Source of the DNA: Zetaproteobacteria bacterium CG06_land_8_20_14_3_00_59_53
GTDB taxonomy: Bacteria > Pseudomonadota > Zetaproteobacteria > Mariprofundales > Mariprofundaceae
Assembly (NCBI GenBank): GCA_002779605.1
Contig: PEWE01000022.1
Span: 12,861 to 47,670, forward strand
Direction: 5' to 3'
Length of the DNA: 34,810 nt
Below the pieces are notes generated by a model that searched no databases, was not told the origin of the DNA, and saw only the letters and a program-made list of their open reading frames with translations. Shown in pieces: positions 16,380 through 32,809 of this stretch; position 1 is the stretch's first letter, and each line of letters opens with the position of its first letter. The position numbers were made by a program, and so were the translations under genes.

Positions 16380-17540
16380 TTAGTTATCCGCATTGGTGTT
16401 GCCCTGCAAAATCCGGAAGCGCTCCTGCAGCTCGGTGGCACGGCGCAGGCTGTCGGTGTAGTCGCGATTCTCGGGTTGCAGCAATGCCGCCTGAGTCCAT
16501 GCCTCGACTGCTGTGTCCAACTTCTCCTGCTGGAAAGCCATCTGGCCGGTTCTGAAGGCCTCTTCTGCCTGCTTCTTCAGAGTCTTGTCGATACTCTGCA
16601 GCAGTGTATCGGCATCGTCGCCGCCGTCGCGGCGATACATCATGGCGTAATCATGTGCTTCAAGCCACTTGCCCTCGGCCATCAGTTGCTGAATCTGCTC
16701 GGCGGTCACGTTTGCCGGAGGTTTGTTGCGGCTGGAGCTGGTGGAACGAACAGTGCGCCTGGAGCTTTTCGCTTCCGACGGGATACGCAAGCTCTTGGGC
16801 AGAGCCTCGCGAACATCCTGCATCAGTCTGTCGCCGAGCCGCGATCCGGGACGCAGCCGCTGGTAGGATTCTGCCTCGACATAAGCCACTTCCGGGTGTC
16901 CTTCGCGCAATTCACGCTTGGCGGCATTCAAGGCATTGCGTCCGCGTGCCAGAACCCTGTCCTGGGCTCGTTCGAGTTCGCGGGCGAAAGGCGTGTCTTG
17001 CGGATCAAGTCCTTTTGGCGGGTCGTAGCGATCAAGTGCTTCGAGCAGCTGGGCATCTTCCTTGCGACGCTGTTCGGCCAGGGCGTCCAGGCGTTTCTGG
17101 CGCAGGATCAGATCGATGCGATCCGCTTCTTTCTGCATCTTGTCATCACCGATCCATACGGCGGCGGTTTTGAGATAGAAATCCTTGGCAAGGTAGAGTT
17201 TACCCTGTCTTTCGGCCCGTTCGGCTGAATCGCGATAGTGGCGCAACAGCTTCAGGCGTGCTGGTTCGATCTTTTCTTTCAGCAGTGCTTGCGCATCCGC
17301 ATAATCAGGGCGGTTGGGGTCGGTTCGCAGGGCTGCGCGCCGGGCCAGGATGATATCGCCGCTTTCGTAGTAATATTTGGCCGATTTATAGCTGCTGACC
17401 GCGCTCATCGCCTGTTCCTGGATGTTGTTCAGGCCTTTGCTCAGCGAGCCGCCGCCACAGCCGTTCATCAGCCATGGCAATGCGATCAGCATCGCGAACA
17501 GGCGGCACTTCCGGGGGTCAGGCAGCTTCAGTTGTAGCAA
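16380..17540 (-). CDS. TPR-containing lipoprotein of unknown role
   Basis: A 386-residue exported protein: basic n-region RKCR, hydrophobic core MLIALPWLM and a lipobox-like NGC with Cys28, then Gly/Ser and long charged helices. TPR-like repeats are clearest near the C-terminus (about 325-375; [20 protein letters not shown] ... [10 protein letters not shown]). A Ser/Arg-rich linker sits near 255-275. The TTG start at 17540 is chosen because GGAGG lies ten bases upstream; it overlaps the cyclase gene by 23 bases. ATG 17492 would give a shorter signal peptide without a good ribosome site. It occupies the place of pilF/rodZ before ispG in other genomes, but I see no PilF or RodZ signature. Confidence 0.8.
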
Positions 17541-19056
17541 GGCTTGATTCCTCCATGTGCTTTTCTTCCTTCTTCACCGTGAGGTCGAAAGCGAGCGATA
17601 CGGCGTGCTGCAGGTTGACGGCGACCCTGGCATCGTCGGCGACAAGCCTACCGCAGTTGATGGTCTTTTGAATGCCTTTGATGGTTTTGCGTCCTATATC
17701 ATCGAAGCTGAAGCCTTTGCCGATCTCCCGGAAGGTGTTCTGCGAAAGCACCACTTCGCCGCCTTCGCCAAGCCCTGTCATGCGCGAGGCCACATTCACC
17801 GCATCACCGATGACCGTGTACTCGAGTCGTTCGGCGGCGCCGATATTGCCGACGATCGCCTCGCCGTGGTTGATGCCGACACGGAATACGATTTCCGGCG
17901 CATCAGGGTTCGCTTTGTTCAGTTGCGTGCAGGCCAGTGTGATGGCCAGGCCTGCCATGGCCGCGTGGCGCACATGTGCCTCGTCTTCATGCGGGTGATT
18001 GAACACCGCCATCACTGCATCTCCGATGTACTTGTCCACATGTCCGCCGTAGTAGTCGATGATGCGATGGAACATCTCGAAATGGCGGTTCAGTACGCGC
18101 ACCACCTCTTCACTGGGGTTGCTCTCCGAGAAGGCGGTGAAGCCGACCATATCGGCAAACAGGACAGCCACCGGCTGGCGGCGGCTGACGGGCGCCGAGG
18201 CGTTCTCGTCGAACATGTCGTTGACCAGTTCGGGATTGAGATAGCGGCCGAAGGCATCGCGCAGTTTTTCCTTATGCGCCAGTTCGCTGACCATGTGGTT
18301 GAACTGTTCGCCGGCATCACTGATCTCGTCGTTGCCGCGGATATGGATACGGGTGGAGAAATCGCCGTCGGCCACATGCCGGGCCGCCATCGCCAGCGCC
18401 TCCAGCGGTCGGCTCATGCGTGTGGCAACCCAGTAGGCCGCGATGCTGGAAAGCAGGATGACGATCACCGCCACCATCAGGGTGCTCGCAATAAAACGGT
18501 TGGCCAGCGAACGCCATTCATCGCCCGAGAAACGCACGGCGATGCTGCCCACCCGGGCCGAGGCATAGCTGACGGGCTGGACGTACCAAAGGTCGTCGGA
18601 CAGCAGCAGATGTTTCGCGGATTCCGCCTTGTTGTCCTTTGACAACGGCACGGTTTCGCCCACTTCGGCGTAATTGTGCAACTCCCCGTCGGCATACTGC
18701 ACCTGAATGCCGAGCACGGTGGGTACCTTCTCGCGGAAACCGGTGACGATGATGTCCACCTGGGTCTTATCGAGCTTTCGACCGGCGAGCATGTAGCTTT
18801 TCACCTCGTCGCCGAGGCGCTCGACCATCACGCGGGCCTGCGCCTGCTGGCTCTTAAGCCAGGCATCGCGCTCCATATTCAGCAGGATCAGGGAAACAAT
18901 CAGCACAGCCAGCGCCACGGTGGTGCTGACCAGAGCCATCCAGCGCCAGCGGATGGGGAAACGCACGCTGGACAGGTTCGCCTGCCAGATAGACAGGTTG
19001 TTTTTCCAGTTGGCTTGGGATTTTTCCCAGATGGAAATGAGCTCCGGCAAGGTCAT
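17518..19056 (-). CDS. membrane class III adenylate/guanylate cyclase with HAMP
   Basis: Signal-responsive nucleotide cyclase of 512 residues. Transmembrane helices at about 40-60 and 188-212 flank a periplasmic sensor region of about 125 residues. A HAMP domain follows (about 211-262), then a class III catalytic domain (about 293-470). Catalytic residues appear intact: metal-binding Asp302 (LFADMVGFT) and Asp346 (KYIGDAVMAVF), base-selecting Lys342 and Thr414 (EYTVIGDAVN), and the transition-state pair Asn421/Arg425. The Lys/Thr pair favours ATP, so cAMP is the expected product. It is the first gene of the long minus-strand train, just downstream of a terminator, so a promoter should lie in 19057-19118; none is obvious. 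The signal sensed is unknown. Confidence 0.92.
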   Translation of the reverse strand: MTLPELISIWEKSQANWKNNLSIWQANLSSVRFPIRWRWMALVSTTVALAVLIVSLILLNMERDAWLKSQQAQARVMVERLGDEVKSYMLAGRKLDKTQVDIIVTGFREKVPTVLGIQVQYADGELHNYAEVGETVPLSKDNKAESAKHLLLSDDLWYVQPVSYASARVGSIAVRFSGDEWRSLANRFIASTLMVAVIVILLSSIAAYWVATRMSRPLEALAMAARHVADGDFSTRIHIRGNDEISDAGEQFNHMVSELAHKEKLRDAFGRYLNPELVNDMFDENASAPVSRRQPVAVLFADMVGFTAFSESNPSEEVVRVLNRHFEMFHRIIDYYGGHVDKYIGDAVMAVFNHPHEDEAHVRHAAMAGLAITLACTQLNKANPDAPEIVFRVGINHGEAIVGNIGAAERLEYTVIGDAVNVASRMTGLGEGGEVVLSQNTFREIGKGFSFDDIGRKTIKGIQKTINCGRLVADDARVAVNLQHAVSLAFDLTVKKEEKHMEESSLATTEAA

Positions 19057-19672: not shown

Positions 19673-20998
19673 CTAGGGGATCCTGATGTTGACCCGTAGT
19701 CCGTGCATGTCATCAGAGCGGGACAGCGTGATCTCGCCTTCATAGGCGGCGACCATTTCCGATACGATGGACAGGCCGAGGCCATGGCCGGGTGTCGACT
19801 CATCGGCGCGGGTACCGCGATACAGCAGCTCTGCATAGTCCTCTTCTTCGATGCCGGGACCGTCGTCCTCGATGCAGATGCACACCCCTCCCTGTGCGCC
19901 CCAGATGCGGCAGCGGACCCGGGATTCGGCCCATTTGCACGCGTTCTCCAGCAGGTTGCCGAAGATCTCCAGCATGTCTTCACGGTCTGCGGGTATTTTC
20001 AGCCCGGTGTCGATCTGCACATCGAAGTCGATGCGCGGGAACACCTGATTCAACATGCTCGCCAAGTCCCGGATGTCGCGGTCGGCGTCGCTCCACTGGC
20101 CCCCGGGCATGCGCCCGGCCGTTCTGGCTCTGACCAGTTCCCGCTCGACGCGTTGTTCGATACGTTCAAGCTGTTCGGACAGCTGGCTGATATCTGATGC
20201 TTCGATGCCGCAGTCGGATGTTCCGGATGAGGCTGACTGCCTGCGGATGATCTGACGGGTCACGGCCAGCGGTGTTTTCAGGCTGTGTGCCAGGTCGCCG
20301 AGTGCATGTCGCGAGCGTTGCAGTCGCTGCTGCATCATCTGCATCAGGTGATTGATCTCCTCGACCAGCGGCATGATCTCATCCGGGGCCGGTGCATCGA
20401 TGATTTCCTGCTCGCCTTTCTTCAGGCGGTTGATCTGCATGCGGATGCGTTGCAGGGGCTTCAGGCTGTACCCGATCAGCCAGCCTTGCAGCAGCATCAA
20501 TACCAGCACGGCACACAGCGCGAAGAGCAGCAGATGGCGCTGAAAATCCCCGGTGGAGTGTTCGATCGGAAGGATGTTCTCAGCCGTGCGAATGGTGACC
20601 GGTTGACCTTTGAACTGCACGGTTTCCTCTACCACCAGCAGGCGCTGGTCGTCGGGGCCTGGGACATCGCGTACAATCGCGCCGGCTTGTGCAGGAAGCT
20701 TCTCGTCCCACAGCGAGCGGGAGCGCAGGATGGTTCCGCCGATGTCCAGCTGGAAATAATGTCCGGAGAAGGGTCGCTCGTAGATGCCGGGAATCAGGGA
20801 CCTGCGCAACTCCGGTGTTGCAGGCGGAAGCCATTCCAGAGCGGCGATGATCTGTTCCTGATCGTGTTGCAGACGGGACAGCAGATTGCGTTCGCCGAGT
20901 GATTCCACCTCGTTGCCGATCATCCAGGTCTGGATGATGAAAAACAGCGCCAGGCTTGCAGCCAGACTGAGGGTCAGACGTTGCCGCAGCGAGCTCAT
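19673..20998 (-). CDS. sensor histidine kinase (PhoQ/QseC-like)
   Basis: Membrane sensor kinase of 441 residues. Transmembrane helices lie at about 8-27 and 155-178, with a periplasmic domain of about 125 residues between them. A HAMP-like linker follows, then the dimerisation/phosphoacceptor helix with His238 (ALGDLAHSLKTPLAV), and a HATPase domain with N box GNLLENACKWA (347-357), G1 EDDGPGIE and G2 GHGLGLS. The HSLKTPL form is typical of PhoQ-like kinases. The ATG shares one base with the regulator stop (TGATG), so the pair is coupled and cognate. Its signal is unknown; the cytochromes encoded in the same operon suggest a redox, haem or gas (NO/O2) cue. Confidence 0.93.
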   Translation of the reverse strand: MSSLRQRLTLSLAASLALFFIIQTWMIGNEVESLGERNLLSRLQHDQEQIIAALEWLPPATPELRRSLIPGIYERPFSGHYFQLDIGGTILRSRSLWDEKLPAQAGAIVRDVPGPDDQRLLVVEETVQFKGQPVTIRTAENILPIEHSTGDFQRHLLLFALCAVLVLMLLQGWLIGYSLKPLQRIRMQINRLKKGEQEIIDAPAPDEIMPLVEEINHLMQMMQQRLQRSRHALGDLAHSLKTPLAVTRQIIRRQSASSGTSDCGIEASDISQLSEQLERIEQRVERELVRARTAGRMPGGQWSDADRDIRDLASMLNQVFPRIDFDVQIDTGLKIPADREDMLEIFGNLLENACKWAESRVRCRIWGAQGGVCICIEDDGPGIEEEDYAELLYRGTRADESTPGHGLGLSIVSEMVAAYEGEITLSRSDDMHGLRVNIRIP

Positions 20999-21687
20999 CA
21001 GGTGCCGGTTTGCAGCAGGTCCGGATCGAGGTAGTAACCCTGCCCTCGCCGGGTGCAGATCACATCCTTGTCGATCTTGCGGCGCAGGCGGCTGATATAC
21101 ACTTCGATCACATTGCTTTCCTTTTCCGCGTCGAAATCATAGACGTGTTCGAGGAGATGAGAATTCGAGCAGACCTTTTTCGGATGCAGCATCAGGTAGC
21201 GCAGCAGGCGGAATTCGATACCGGTAAGCTCGATATCACTCCAGCTGTCGCCCGTTTTCCACTGCGCGGATTGGCGACCCTCATCGAGCTTCAGGCGACC
21301 GATCTCCAGGCTTGCCGCCACCACGCCGGCCGAGCGTTTGACCAGCGTTTGCAGGCGCACAGCCAGTTCCTCGATATGAAAGGGTTTGGTCAGGTAGTCG
21401 TCGGCGCCCTTGCGGAAGCCATTCACTTTTTCGTGCCATGCACCGCGTGCCGTCAGGATCAGTACGGGGGTTGTGATGCCCTTGCCGCGCCAGCGCTCAA
21501 GAATATCCAGTCCCGGAAGGTCGGGCAGGCCGAGATCGAGAACGATGATGTCGTAGGGCTCGGTCTCACCCATGAAGGCACCGTCTTCACCCTCCCGGCA
21601 GCTGTCCACTGCAAAGCCTCGACGCCCGAGCTCATTGCTCAGTTCGCGGTTCAGGGCGGGCTCGTCCTCGATCAGCAGCAGCCGCAT
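20998..21687 (-). CDS. OmpR/PhoP-family response regulator
   Basis: Two-component transcription regulator of 229 residues. The receiver domain (1-115) has the acidic pocket Glu7-Asp8, phosphoacceptor Asp51 (IIVLDLGLPD), Thr79 and Lys101 (LTKPF). The winged-helix DNA-binding domain (about 130-222) ends with VYISRLRRKID and RGQGYYL. ATG 21687 shares one base with the PepSY gene stop (TGATG); a TTG immediately before it would add one residue. It probably binds the TTCAGGTT repeats at 23654-23693 and 19623-19662, giving autoregulation of its own operon (inference). Confidence 0.94.
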   Translation of the reverse strand: MRLLLIEDEPALNRELSNELGRRGFAVDSCREGEDGAFMGETEPYDIIVLDLGLPDLPGLDILERWRGKGITTPVLILTARGAWHEKVNGFRKGADDYLTKPFHIEELAVRLQTLVKRSAGVVAASLEIGRLKLDEGRQSAQWKTGDSWSDIELTGIEFRLLRYLMLHPKKVCSNSHLLEHVYDFDAEKESNVIEVYISRLRRKIDKDVICTRRGQGYYLDPDLLQTGT

Positions 21688-22028
21688 CAATGATCCTTGT
21701 CCGTGGACAGGATGTGTCCGTCCCTGGCATCGATCTTCAGGTAATGCACCACCTTGTCGCTGCCCAGTAACTGCATTTCATATACCACCTGTTCGCCCTC
21801 TTCTTCGAGTTCGACTTCAAGCAGGGTGCCCGGATAGTTTTTTTCAACGCTTTGCAGGATATGCGAGAGCGGCATGATGCTGGCCGTGCTGCGCAGCTCG
21901 CGCACCCGGTCCACATCGTCCGCCAGCGCGCTTGCCAGAGCAAGTCCCGAGATGCACACGAACAGGGCAAGGCACGCCGCAAGAAAGGGAGCAGTGGTGT
22001 CTCGTGTCAGGTCTTCAGCCTGCTTCAT
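21687..22028 (-). CDS. PepSY-domain periplasmic protein
   Basis: A 113-residue protein with an N-terminal signal or anchor helix (about 14-36) and one PepSY domain: ILQSVEKNYPGTLLEVELEEEG ... YEMQLLGSDKVVHYLKIDARDGHIL. PepSY proteins of this size are often encoded between redox genes and an OmpR-type two-component system and may modulate the sensor's periplasmic domain. I chose ATG 22028, which has GGGG at good spacing; ATG 22034 is six bases upstream. It ends overlapping the response regulator start. Confidence 0.85.
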   Translation of the reverse strand: MKQAEDLTRDTTAPFLAACLALFVCISGLALASALADDVDRVRELRSTASIMPLSHILQSVEKNYPGTLLEVELEEEGEQVVYEMQLLGSDKVVHYLKIDARDGHILSTDKDH

Positions 22029-22047
22029 GTGCATCCCCGGATGCCTG

Positions 22048-22650
22048 TTATTCCCAGCTGCCGAAGCCGGGGATGACTACGCCATCCTCGTCGAATGAGC
22101 CCTTCTCGGCACCGCTGTGGCAGGTGGCGCAATTGGCAAAGGAGCGCACCTTGGGGTTGTCGCGCACCATGCGGGCCGGAACCTCGTCGTGCTTGCGTTC
22201 GAAATAGGCGGTTTCCGAGATGCGCATCGGGGTGGCATCGTCACGGATCGAGCGCAGGAAGCTGCGGCTGTAGCGGTTGGGTATGCGATCCGCTGCATTG
22301 CCGCGCAGATAGTTCTCGATGGATACACGGATGGCTTCGTCCAGCTTGGCATTTTCGCCGAAATGATCGGACAGTCCGCCCATGATCTTCACCCAGGAGC
22401 GCTCCGGCAGGAAGCTCGGCTGATAGGCGAAATGGCAGGCCGAGCACTCGGTCTGATACTGCTTGTTGGTCACCAGAGCCACACCTGTCGTGCGGCCCCA
22501 GCCGCCCTCGGCCTTGCCTTCACCGGCGTATTTGGAACCGGCCTTGTTGTAGTCATCGCTATCACTCCAGGCCAGCGTGCCCATCGAAAGCGTGATGCAG
22601 CCGGCAAACAGCAGCATACCCCAGAAGCGATTCAGTTTCATATTTTTCAT
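22048..22650 (-). CDS. dihaem cytochrome c (DHC)
   Basis: Periplasmic dihaem cytochrome c of 200 residues. A signal peptide (about 5-28) precedes two haem-binding sites, CSACH (Cys69, Cys72, His73) and CATCH (Cys174, Cys177, His178), about 105 residues apart. The SACHFAYQPSFLP stretch is typical of DHC of the SHP/DHC system, where DHC passes electrons from a membrane cytochrome b to SHP. That partner gene lies 21 bases upstream and the b-type cytochrome before that, so the complete chain is encoded together. The early FAGC is not a canonical lipobox. Confidence 0.9.
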   Translation of the reverse strand: MKNMKLNRFWGMLLFAGCITLSMGTLAWSDSDDYNKAGSKYAGEGKAEGGWGRTTGVALVTNKQYQTECSACHFAYQPSFLPERSWVKIMGGLSDHFGENAKLDEAIRVSIENYLRGNAADRIPNRYSRSFLRSIRDDATPMRISETAYFERKHDEVPARMVRDNPKVRSFANCATCHSGAEKGSFDEDGVVIPGFGSWE

Positions 22651-22671
22651 GTGTATCTCTTTTTGTCGGTT

Positions 22672-23073
22672 TTATTTGGATTGGATGAAGGCAAGGAAAT
22701 CCGCCTTCTCCTGTGCGGTACAATCGCGGCCGATGGTCCATTCGCAATTGCGGCCGAACCATTTCTCGATCTTGGCCGGGTCGGTCAGGCGCTCTGGATT
22801 CACACTCGGTGCCATCGGCTCGATGCGCTTGGCGGTGCGCATGTGTTCGCCGGCCTGTGTCAGGTCGGTGCTGTGGCAGGAGGCGCAGCTCACCATCTTG
22901 CCCAGATCGGGCTGCATGTGCTGCTCGTTCCAGGAGGCCTGTCCACGCGCCGCATCGGCGCCGCTTGCGCCCTGCTGCTCGTAGCCGACGATCTGGGCCT
23001 GAACGACAGCTTCCGAGGCATGTACGGCTCCGGCCTGCAGAAGCATCGGGATGATCCATAGATATTTCTTCAT
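22672..23073 (-). CDS. SHP-like monohaem cytochrome c (DUF1924)
   Basis: Periplasmic high-spin type cytochrome related to Rhodobacter SHP ('sphaeroides haem protein'), 133 residues. It has a signal peptide (1-19, ...HAS), haem site CASCH (Cys63, Cys66, His67), and late Asn109-Cys110 with Cys118 (GRNCEWTIGRDC). In SHP the sixth haem ligand is an Asn next to a disulfide-forming Cys and is displaced by O2 or NO; the Asn-Cys and second Cys here match that arrangement, which I infer from family knowledge. The ATG overlaps the cytochrome b stop (ATGA). Likely role: reduction or oxidation of a small ligand at the haem, fed by DHC. Confidence 0.88.
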   Translation of the reverse strand: MKKYLWIIPMLLQAGAVHASEAVVQAQIVGYEQQGASGADAARGQASWNEQHMQPDLGKMVSCASCHSTDLTQAGEHMRTAKRIEPMAPSVNPERLTDPAKIEKWFGRNCEWTIGRDCTAQEKADFLAFIQSK

Positions 23074-23654
23074 GCTTGTTGCTCCTTCAGGTTTTTCCTG
23101 CCGGTGATCATGGCAAGAGTCAGGTTGCAGCGTTGCAGCACACTTTCCGCTGCCACGCCGGCAAGATGGATGGCAACAAGGACCTGCAGGGCATCAAAGC
23201 ACCAGCCATGCAGCTGCATCACCAGCCATTCGGTTTGCATATCCGCCTGCGCTGCCCAGCCGGCAAAAGGACCGAGGCCCATTTGCAGGGCGGCCAGTAG
23301 CATGCCGCTGATACCCAGAACAAGCAGCACGATAAGCAGGATGTAGATCATCAGGCTGCCGATCGGCGTATGACCCTTGTAGCGGTCGGCCTGCAAGTGC
23401 AGCAGTTCGATAACATGCTGCCGGATAGCAGCAAGCGAGGGACGGAGCGAGGCGAACAGCGCATGCTGCTCACCAGCCACACCCCAGATCAGGCGGAAGA
23501 AAAGCAGGCCGGGGATCACGCTGCCGGCCAGCATGTGGATGCGGATGTCGCTGCCCTCGCTCCACCATGCGATACCGAAGGCCACGACCAGCAGCCAGTG
23601 AAAGCTGCGCAGCAGGGGGTCCCAGACCATGATGGATGTGTTTTGCCCGTTCAT
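23070..23654 (-). CDS. cytochrome b561-family membrane protein
   Basis: Four-helix dihaem b-type cytochrome of 194 residues, expected to take electrons from quinol and pass them to periplasmic DHC. Candidate haem ligands on the helices are His19 (SFHWLL), His40 (IRIHMLAG), His149 (MQLHG) and His163 (AIHLAG). It is the first gene of the operon. The ATG at 23654 has no clear Shine-Dalgarno and lies at the edge of operator block B; an internal ATG at 23630 (MVWDPLLR) is a possible alternative. Its stop overlaps the SHP start. Confidence 0.91.
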   Translation of the reverse strand: MNGQNTSIMVWDPLLRSFHWLLVVAFGIAWWSEGSDIRIHMLAGSVIPGLLFFRLIWGVAGEQHALFASLRPSLAAIRQHVIELLHLQADRYKGHTPIGSLMIYILLIVLLVLGISGMLLAALQMGLGPFAGWAAQADMQTEWLVMQLHGWCFDALQVLVAIHLAGVAAESVLQRCNLTLAMITGRKNLKEQQA

Positions 23655-23754: not shown

Positions 23755-24633
23755 TCAGGCCTCGCCGCAGACTCTGCCTCTACCCTTGTTCTTGGCTTCA
23801 TAGAGCCGTTGGTCGGCCTGATGCAACAGCACCTCGATTCGTTCAGACATGGGGGTTTTATCGGCGGGGGGATTATAGCTGGCGATACCTGCGGAGAAGC
23901 TGATGGGGATCTCCTGCCCGTCGGGCAGGCATACAGGCCGGCGCTTTACACGCTCCAGCCACTGCCCGGCAGCCCTGATGGCATCGGCATTGGCGGTATG
24001 CGGCAACAGCACGAGGAATTCCTCGCCGCCCCAGCGGCCGATGATGTCGGCATCACGGATGCAGATATTCAATGTGTCGACAACGCCTTTGAGAACAGCA
24101 TCGCCTGCCGGATGTCCGTAGGTGTCGTTGACCTGTTTGAAGTGATCCAGATCGAGCAGGGCGATGGAATAGGGATGCCCATAACGCGAGGCCTGCGACA
24201 GGGCCTCGCCGAGCAGGGTCTGCATATGGCGGCGATTGTAGATGCCGGTCAGGGCATCGTGGGTGGCCTCATAGCGCAGCTGCTCGCGGGTTTCCTTGAT
24301 CTGGCTGACCATGCGCACGATCAGTCGTGCCTCCAGGCCGCCGATCACACCGCCCACGCCAAGCGATTCTCCGACTACATCCTCGACCATCTCGTTGCCG
24401 GTCAGATTGAATGCCACGCAGGGCTTGCAGGCCTCGATGGCGGTCTCGATATCCGAGAAAACCGTAATGCCCAGATCGCTGGCCATGTGCATGCCTTTGG
24501 CATCGGGATTCTTGTCGGCCATGCCTACGATTTCCACCAGCGGTTCATCGCGCAGCATCTCAAGCACGGCAGTGCCGCCTTCACCTGCGCCCAGAATCAG
24601 CACGCGGCGCGGATCCTCCATGAATCGCTTCAT
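23755..24633 (-). CDS. Rossmann-domain diguanylate cyclase (GGDEF)
   Basis: Soluble 292-residue fusion. The N-terminal part (about 9-105) looks like an NAD(P)-binding Rossmann fold: RRVLILGAGEGG at the start, then MADKNPDAKG and VFSDIETAIEACKP, ending in a Gly-rich GVGGVIGG. A helix (about 103-122) links to a GGDEF domain (about 123-290) with DLDHFKQVNDTYGH, the active-site GGEEF (202-206) and an intact inhibitory RxxD site (Arg193-Asp196). It should make c-di-GMP, possibly gated by a dinucleotide or redox cue; that gating is inferred. There are no membrane segments. It is divergent from yhbY and upstream of the cytochrome operon in the same direction. Confidence 0.9.
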   Translation of the reverse strand: MKRFMEDPRRVLILGAGEGGTAVLEMLRDEPLVEIVGMADKNPDAKGMHMASDLGITVFSDIETAIEACKPCVAFNLTGNEMVEDVVGESLGVGGVIGGLEARLIVRMVSQIKETREQLRYEATHDALTGIYNRRHMQTLLGEALSQASRYGHPYSIALLDLDHFKQVNDTYGHPAGDAVLKGVVDTLNICIRDADIIGRWGGEEFLVLLPHTANADAIRAAGQWLERVKRRPVCLPDGQEIPISFSAGIASYNPPADKTPMSERIEVLLHQADQRLYEAKNKGRGRVCGEA

Positions 24634-30283: not shown

Positions 30284-32776
30284 TCATGGCGCTGATGCAT
30301 GCAACAGCTTCTGGATGGCCCTGCTTAGTTCGACGATATTATATGGTTTGGAGAAAACCTCGCTGCCCTGCGGGATATTGTCCGGAACCGTCGCGTCTTT
30401 GTCGTAACCTGTGCAGTAGATGATGTTGATGTCGGGGTCGATCTGCCGGATAGCCCAGGCGGCTTTCACGCCGCCCATGGAGGGCATGACGACATCCATC
30501 AGGATCAGACCGATGTCCTGTTTGTGCGCAGTGAATACGTCGATGGCCTCTTGCCCGTTGGCCGCAGTCAGCACCCGGTATTGCATGCTTTCCAGCAACT
30601 CCCGGCCGATGTTGATGATGCTCGGGTCGTCGTCCACCAGAAGGATGGTTTCGCCGTTTCCGCTGATGGCCTTTTCTTCCTCTTGCGGCGGTGTCACTGC
30701 GCTGCGGTTGTCTTCGCGCAGGGGAAGATAGAGGTGGAATATCGACCCCTCGCCCTTGATGCTTTCCACCTCTATATATCCGTGATGGTTCTTGATGGCG
30801 CCGAACGTCATGGTCAGCCCCAGTCCGGTTCCCTTGCCCTGCTCCTTGGTGGTGAAGAATGGCTCGAAGATGTGTTCGATGTGATGCGCCGGGATACCGC
30901 AGCCGTTATCCGATACACTCAGTTGGGCATAGCGCCCGGTCTTGAAATAGCTATGTGACTTCCTGAAGTCATCATCGGCCACAAGGGTTCTCAGCCGGAT
31001 GCCGATGCATGGCTCCGACGAGTCTTGCAGTGCATCGCGGGCGTTGTTGGTCAGATTCAGCAGTACCTGATGGAGTTGTGTGCTGTCACCGTTGACCGAC
31101 AGTGCATCGCTGCATATGTCCTGACGCAGTTCGATATTCTCCGAGATCGAGCTACGCAGGAATTTGACGGTTTCCTTGATGAAGGAGGTGAGCGGCAGGG
31201 GTTTGATGTTGACCTGATCCTTGCGCGCGAAGGTCAGTAGCTGCTGGATCATGTCCGCCGCGCGGAACGAAAGCTGCTCGATCCCCTTCAGCTTGAGCGC
31301 CACGTCGGGCATGTCCGTGACCCGCAACTGAACCAGATACAGATTCCCCATGATGCCGGCCAGCATATTGTTGAAATCGTGCGCGATGCCGCCGACCAAG
31401 GTGCCGATGGCCTCCATCTTCTGCGCCTGGTGGAACTGCTGCTCGAGATCCTCGTAGGCGCTCAGGTCCTGCTGGATGCCCACGAAACTTTCGATATCGC
31501 CGGCATGGTTCCTGATCGGGGAGATGGTCAGCATGGCGGGATAGAAGGTGCCGTCCTTTCTCCGGTCCACGACTCTGCCCTGCCAGGGCGTGCCCTCGCT
31601 GATGGCGTTCCACATCTCCTTGTAGAACATCTCGTCCTGCCTGTCGCTGTTCAACATGCGCGGGTTTTTGCCGACTACCTCGTCTTCCGTGTAACCCGTC
31701 AGACGACTGAAGGCCGGATTGACGTACTTGATGGCGCCTTTCCTGTCGGTGATCAGGATGGCCTCGTTGGCCTGCTCGATGGAAGAGGACAGCATACGCA
31801 AGCGCTGTTCGGCCAGTCGGCGTTTGGAGATGTCCATGCCGACGCCGATGAAGTAATCCCTGCCATCGATGCTCAGCGGTACGGAGGTGAAAAGCAGGGG
31901 GGTGCGTGTGCCATCCTTGCACAGCAGGCGTCCTTCGACTTCGGCATAGCCGCCGTGGTAAAAAGTTTCGAGGTTTGCGCGGATGGCCGGGTGGTAGCTC
32001 TCCTCGAAGAAATCCAGCAGATGCATGCGTGCCAGTTCGTCCGGGCTGTAGCCGGTGAACTCGCAGAAACGGTTGTTCCAGCGCACCAGCCGGTGGTCGT
32101 CGTCGAACAGATATAACAGGCCCGGGACCGAGCTCATCAGGGTGTCGGAGAAGGCCTTTTCACGCTGCTGGCTTTGTTTCAGCGCCTGCTCGATCTTCAG
32201 GCGCTCGTTCTTTTCGCGCATCAGTTCGAGCGTGCGTGAAGAAAGATGGTCGTACATCGACAGCACGGTTTCGATCAGCACCTGCATCGAGCCGCTCATC
32301 TCTATCTCAGCCTGCGCCTTTGCCTGTTCGAGCGGAAGACCGGCGTTCACGGCCAGTACGGTCTTGGCCATGCGCTTGTCGCTGTCCAGGATATGAAAAG
32401 CCAGCCAGTGCGTCAGGAACTTGAGGATGTCTTCCACGACCACGTCGAGCGGCTTGTCGCCCTCCTCCGCCTTCAGGGCGCTCACCTGACCCATGAAGGA
32501 GTCGTGGGTCTGTTTGTGATTGAGATATTCGGGATCGTTGCCGAAGCAGGGTTCCCAGATACCTTCCTCGGTCTTGAAATGGTGATCCGCATAGGCGGCC
32601 AGATCATCAAACACCTGATTCAGCCGGATCGCGCCGGACTGGTTGCCCAGATGATTGGCTAGCAGGTTGAGGATGCGGACAAGCTGCTTGTGCTGCTCGT
32701 CGACCAGCGGGATGCCTGATTCGAAGTTCTGGTTCCATGGGAAGATGTCGAAAGCCTCGATTTCCTGATCGTTCAT
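30284..32776 (-). CDS. hemerythrin-PAS-PAS hybrid histidine kinase with receiver
   Basis: Soluble hybrid sensor kinase of 830 residues. The N-terminal hemerythrin domain (about 10-145) has a full di-iron ligand set: His29 (DEQH), His66 and Glu70 (HHFKTEE), His87 and His91 (HKQTH), His128 and Asp133 (HILDSD). Two PAS/PAC modules follow (about 207-325 and 328-443), then the phosphoacceptor helix with His466 (GGIAHDFNNMLAG), a HATPase domain (about 560-687) and a C-terminal receiver with Asp761 (LILMDVVMP). Likely senses O2 or a redox change through the di-iron site. No DNA-binding output is encoded nearby. I chose ATG 32776 with AAGGA six bases upstream; ATG 32782 abuts that site. It follows polA by 33 bases. 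Confidence 0.93.
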   Translation of the reverse strand: MNDQEIEAFDIFPWNQNFESGIPLVDEQHKQLVRILNLLANHLGNQSGAIRLNQVFDDLAAYADHHFKTEEGIWEPCFGNDPEYLNHKQTHDSFMGQVSALKAEEGDKPLDVVVEDILKFLTHWLAFHILDSDKRMAKTVLAVNAGLPLEQAKAQAEIEMSGSMQVLIETVLSMYDHLSSRTLELMREKNERLKIEQALKQSQQREKAFSDTLMSSVPGLLYLFDDDHRLVRWNNRFCEFTGYSPDELARMHLLDFFEESYHPAIRANLETFYHGGYAEVEGRLLCKDGTRTPLLFTSVPLSIDGRDYFIGVGMDISKRRLAEQRLRMLSSSIEQANEAILITDRKGAIKYVNPAFSRLTGYTEDEVVGKNPRMLNSDRQDEMFYKEMWNAISEGTPWQGRVVDRRKDGTFYPAMLTISPIRNHAGDIESFVGIQQDLSAYEDLEQQFHQAQKMEAIGTLVGGIAHDFNNMLAGIMGNLYLVQLRVTDMPDVALKLKGIEQLSFRAADMIQQLLTFARKDQVNIKPLPLTSFIKETVKFLRSSISENIELRQDICSDALSVNGDSTQLHQVLLNLTNNARDALQDSSEPCIGIRLRTLVADDDFRKSHSYFKTGRYAQLSVSDNGCGIPAHHIEHIFEPFFTTKEQGKGTGLGLTMTFGAIKNHHGYIEVESIKGEGSIFHLYLPLREDNRSAVTPPQEEEKAISGNGETILLVDDDPSIINIGRELLESMQYRVLTAANGQEAIDVFTAHKQDIGLILMDVVMPSMGGVKAAWAIRQIDPDINIIYCTGYDKDATVPDNIPQGSEVFSKPYNIVELSRAIQKLLHASAP

Positions 32777-32809
32777 ATGCATTCCTTGCTCACCATGATG
32801 ATACCGGGA

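Follow-up and report, generated by a model that had tools for sequence, protein, structure and literature searches.

Introduction

The 34,810-nucleotide stretch of zetaproteobacterial DNA analyzed here (hereafter, the window) encodes a 292-amino acid protein at positions 23755–24633 whose GGDEF domain lies at the C-terminal end. The N-terminus of the protein opens with MKRFMEDPRRVLILGAGEGGTAVLEMLRDEPLVEIVGMADKNPDAKG. A preliminary description of the gene proposed that this region is an NAD(P)-type Rossmann domain. Our analysis leads to the view that the protein is probably a soluble diguanylate cyclase with a single Rossmann input whose ligand is a nicotinamide dinucleotide, in all likelihood the NAD+/NADH pair. 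Bacterial proteins that sense NAD(H) directly are mostly known from the example of Rex.

Results

Coding sequence and GGDEF domain

The open reading frame begins with an ATG codon on the minus strand, on which the features of the protein described below and the HAMP/class III nucleotide cyclase gene also lie. It is a genuine gene: orthologues with 47–67% identity adjoin YhbY and BolA in related genomes. Scans for promoters, terminators, and Rfam families returned nothing useful. The GGDEF catalytic domain (residues 123–286; positions 23776–24267) matches PF00990 with an E-value of 3.9e-45, and the alignment spans model positions 1–160 of 161, which indicates a complete domain. The active-site motif reads GGEEF (residues 202–206; 24016–24030). 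Exactly 5 residues separate it from the upstream I-site RDAD (residues 193–196; 24046–24057), an RxxD site for product inhibition that is not obligatory in GGDEF cyclases. This spacing is canonical; of the 51 relatives inspected in Zetaproteobacteria, 48 have the pattern RxxD-5-GG(D/E)EF. The complete GGDEF domain with GGEEF and RxxD motifs that had been described previously is thus present, and the cyclase half, with its intact I-site, is predicted to synthesize c-di-GMP from GTP.

Predicted structure of the N-terminal domain

A structure was predicted with AlphaFold from a 71-sequence alignment that contained full-length relatives, N-terminal relatives, and GGDEF-only homologues. The resulting model has a mean pLDDT of 94.9 and a pTM of 0.83; from residue 11 onward, pLDDT values in the Rossmann domain range from 88 to 98. 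DSSP assigned strand 10–14, helix 18–28, strand 34–39, helix 46–53, helix 62–69, strand 73–76, helix 81–91, and a helix (residues 99–124) that enters the GGDEF domain. We place the Rossmann input domain at residues ~8–105 (24319–24612) on the basis of model confidence and the structural and profile matches described below. The sequence GAGEGG (residues 15–20; 24574–24591), predicted to form the dinucleotide-binding loop, provides the GxGxxG loop of a classical NAD(P)-binding beta-alpha-beta unit. It lies directly after the first strand and leads into helix 18–28, as the preliminary description had placed it. MADKNPDAKG, which that description took as the end of the second strand, indeed follows strand 34–39, with D40 (24514–24516) at the strand end. 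A glycine loop between strand 1 and helix 1 together with an acidic residue that closes strand 2 is the arrangement found in NAD enzymes, in which this acidic residue is the usual ligand of the NAD ribose; D40 is accordingly the predicted adenosine-ribose ligand. Two further motifs were located by alignment and model: NLTGN (residues 76–80; 24394–24408) at the end of strand 4, which includes the conserved T78, and GGLEA (residues 98–102; 24328–24342), where strand 5 ends and the output helix starts. The output helix (24262–24339) runs unbroken from the Rossmann domain into the GGDEF domain.

Foldseek searches with the alignment-based model returned mostly matches to the GGDEF half, and the best PDB matches were the receiver-GGDEF proteins PleD and DgcR. 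Taken at face value, these matches would suggest that the N-terminus is a divergent CheY-like receiver domain, as in PleD or DgcR. However, they are carried by the GGDEF domain, with an rmsd of 10–17 Å over the whole chain, and the glycine loop occupies the place of the receiver's acidic pair. A PleD-type receiver domain with its phospho-acceptor aspartate was not recovered: Pfam matched Response_reg neither to the window protein nor to any member of the family in the N-terminal domain, and a control comparison of the N-terminal profile with the window's own receiver domain revealed no similarity. We therefore regard a receiver domain as scarcely credible. A single-sequence prediction was poor overall (pLDDT 44), yet its N-terminal third still served for Foldseek; in this low-confidence model only residues ~10–78 were trusted, with moderate confidence. 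The solved structures that it retrieved were DapB, Gfo/Idh/MocA-type enzymes, biliverdin reductase, and other NAD(P) oxidoreductases. The model, the Foldseek matches, and the profile matches together support the prediction of a Rossmann fold, and the structure prediction and Rossmann family search suggested in the preliminary description have thus returned the fold that it anticipated.

Profile searches point to NAD-binding families

A profile of the N-terminal domain was built from 45 sequences (alignment A2). Against the PDB, it matched acetaldehyde dehydrogenases (2e-6), Rex (5zz5, E 0.003), and DapB. When the 45 members were searched individually in Pfam, GFO_IDH_MocA was found in 28 and DapB_N in 23; in NCBIfam, acetaldehyde dehydrogenases were matched and Rex was recovered by 3 members. 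The window domain itself falls below the Pfam cut-offs, scoring 20.5 bits against DapB_N (cut-off 25.6) and 19.0 bits against GFO_IDH_MocA (cut-off 24.0). Six relatives (L198, L165, L122, L254, L239, and L161) exceed the Pfam gathering cut-offs for NAD-binding families, and the first of two Rossmann domains in L198 does so for both NAD_binding_3 and GFO_IDH_MocA. The genome's own DapB aligns weakly but in register with the domain profile across residues 7–82 (E 0.003, probability 9.7%). Neither Pfam nor NCBIfam contains a model specific to the N-terminal domain.

CoA and nucleotide sugars are bound by the same fold. A sensor of another nucleotide (CoA, ADP-ribose, a nucleotide sugar, or an S-adenosyl compound) would fit the CoA_binding matches obtained by 8 of the 45 members with E ≤ 0.01, the relative (L234) that barely exceeds the CoA_binding cut-off, and the weak scores of PglD/NeuD-type Rossmann domains. 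Pfam's CoA_binding family, however, also takes in the NADH-binding domain of Rex; NAD(P) oxidoreductases consistently score best, and GxGxxG with an invariant acidic residue is an NAD signature. Such a ligand appears improbable.

Conserved residues of the predicted binding site

Conservation was counted in 106 distinct domains from several phyla. Position 40 is acidic in all 106 (aspartate in 100, glutamate in 6), the glycine loop is kept as GxGxx[GASC] in 102 and as strict GxGxxG in 80, A51 is conserved in 99%, and T78 in 87%. From Zetaproteobacteria to Desulfobacterota, the glycine loop and the acidic residue rank among the best-conserved positions, while the remainder diverges down to 22–30% identity. 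Residues 80–100, where nicotinamide contacts are expected, form the least conserved stretch across phyla. When the 120-residue N-terminus was shuffled 200,000 times, a fingerprint of three hydrophobic residues, GxGxxG, and the acidic end of strand 2, written as a regular expression, appeared in 291 of the shuffled sequences (p ~0.0015). The fingerprint is therefore only suggestive when taken alone, and the case for a Rossmann domain is built on homology and structure; family conservation and structure constitute the stronger evidence.

These counts bear on two further alternatives. Many Rossmann-like domains have become structural, and the window protein lacks the second domain with which the related enzymes bind substrate or carry out catalysis, as would be expected if ligand binding had been lost and the domain served only in dimerization or partner docking. 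Because a purely structural domain has no need of the glycine loop and acidic residue, their conservation amid wider divergence argues against this explanation, which we consider highly improbable. Were NADP(H) the ligand instead of NAD(H), the domain would sense anabolic reducing power. DapB enzymes take both cofactors, and a basic residue after strand 2, such as K41 of the window protein, can hold the 2′-phosphate. Position 41 is not conserved, however, being K or R in 21 of 106 domains, and the acidic residue invariant at position 40 would repel the 2′-phosphate. This residue favors NAD(H), and we judge NADP(H) to be an unlikely ligand. We infer that one of the two nucleotides, and preferentially NAD(H), controls the cyclase.

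Zetaproteobacterial relatives, helix spacing, and gene order

The domain is present in 60 of 74 genomes of the window's own family (Zetaproteobacteria). The window genome contains one Rossmann-GGDEF protein together with seven other GGDEF matches that do not share its N-terminus. Most matches in a contig scan of genomes were likewise unrelated GGDEF proteins; the N-terminus was common only to a protein of Mariprofundus sp. KV (L009), and one candidate full-length relative (L052) was rejected as a receiver-GGDEF protein.

Among the 51 zetaproteobacterial relatives, the distance between the end of the Rossmann domain and the start of GGDEF could be measured in 27 single-input cyclases and is exactly 30 residues in all 27. 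A helix that relays a signal would be expected to keep such a constant length.

The protein family and its gene order are kept in 22 zetaproteobacterial loci, in which the Rossmann-GGDEF gene stands divergently beside YhbY; BolA adjoins in nearly all of them. In 15 of the 22, a gene for a protein with HAMP and class III nucleotide cyclase domains comes directly after it on the same strand, usually with a TPR-like gene and IspG beyond. The corresponding gene in the window occupies positions 17518–19056 (PF00211, E = 3.6e-32; PF00672). Two second-messenger cyclases are thus conserved neighbors across the family; any functional coupling between them is putative. The two are separated in the window and in its two closest relatives (L213 and L215) by a block, at window positions 19673–23654, that encodes cytochrome b561, DUF1924, a dihaem cytochrome, PepSY, a response regulator, and a histidine kinase. 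This block is absent in other genera. Elsewhere in the window, positions 30284–32785 encode a hybrid kinase with the architecture Hemerythrin-PAS-PAS-HisKA-HATPase-REC.

The domain is joined to other signaling outputs

The same domain serves as an N-terminal input elsewhere in Pseudomonadota and in Desulfobacterota, Nitrospirota, Synergistota, and Acidobacteriota. It is thus widespread in at least five bacterial phyla, joined to several different outputs: beyond plain GGDEF, these comprise PAS/GAF-GGDEF, HisKA, HisKA_3, sigma-54 activators, and MCP. GGDEF-type architectures include PAS-GGDEF and longer GGDEF proteins, of which several also contain GAF. In Desulfobacterota, the domain occurs in 65 of 247 genomes, with histidine kinases that contain PAS among its carriers; in Nitrospirota, it occurs in 42 of 118 genomes on HisKA_3 kinases and GAF-PAS-HisKA kinases. 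Acidobacteriota yielded matches in 6 of 119 genomes, three of them weak, and here the outputs are sigma-54 activators. Short soluble Rossmann-MCP signaling proteins of 215–340 amino acids without transmembrane input are found in Magnetococcia-like genomes and Synergistota (L160–L161, L163–L164, L168–L171, L173–L178, L181, and L244–L253). No oxidoreductase catalytic domain was visible in any Rossmann-input protein read.

Some architectures are more elaborate. Three hybrids of ~1020 amino acids (L122, L126, and L132) have the order Rossmann-GAF-HisKA-REC-REC followed by a degenerate GGDEF in which HRVDEFA replaces the GGDEF motif. Tandem N-terminal Rossmann domains are found on PAS proteins of Desulfobacterota (L196, L197, L198, L205, and L206), with histidine kinase domains seen in L198.

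A quick tree of the domain, which is poorly resolved owing to the few columns available, requires 17 changes of output; for the GGDEF label alone, at least 4 changes are forced by well-supported (starred) branches. The domain is always the input, and the outputs have been swapped. Whether it constitutes an uncatalogued pan-bacterial cytosolic module, comparable to PAS or GAF, that reads NAD(H) on behalf of c-di-GMP, kinase, sigma-54, and chemoreceptor outputs is, in our estimation, an evenly balanced question.

Discussion

The analysis establishes the Rossmann fold, the intact glycine loop and acidic residue, the complete cyclase, the fixed spacing along one helix, and the reuse of the domain in front of unrelated outputs. 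If the Rossmann domain binds NAD(H) as we propose, a plausible mechanism would be the following. The Rossmann domains of a dimer would repack when oxidized or reduced nucleotide binds, and the unbroken helix would pass this repacking to the pair of GGDEF domains, setting the production of c-di-GMP; the I-site would cap cyclase output. An iron-oxidizing Zetaproteobacterium must make NADH through reverse electron flow. It is tempting to speculate that an attachment or stalk lifestyle is in this way tied to energy and redox supply.

Confirmation of this proposal would mean that NAD(H) state is coupled directly, through a modular domain, to signaling by c-di-GMP, two-component systems, sigma-54 activators, and chemotaxis. 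A modular dinucleotide sensor would explain the inputs of many proteins that are annotated only by their output, and a single small, soluble protein would allow a direct test of the link between energy state and lifestyle. The open-access literature that we searched contains no prior description of a Rossmann domain with GGDEF or histidine-kinase sensors. A census of the input domains of c-di-GMP proteins from 2022 (PMC8846402) nowhere contains the word "Rossmann", and in the passages retrieved NADH figures solely as acting indirectly on the sensing of flavin or phenazine.

Three known systems invite comparison. PleD, WspR, and DgcR have the same overall layout, with an alpha/beta input, a helix, and GGDEF with an I-site. 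Their input is a phosphorylated receiver, whereas that of the window protein is a Rossmann domain of dinucleotide type. DapB_N and GFO_IDH_MocA (PF01113, PF01408) share the fold, the glycine loop, the acidic end of strand 2, and the threonine after strand 4, but the window protein is without the catalytic or substrate-binding C-terminal half. Rex, to which the profile is weakly similar, also employs a Rossmann domain purely as a sensor with dimeric control of output. In Rex, however, a DNA-binding domain precedes the Rossmann domain, whereas the Rossmann domains of the present family stand at the N-terminus and act on an output that is a cyclase, kinase, chemoreceptor, or AAA+ protein.
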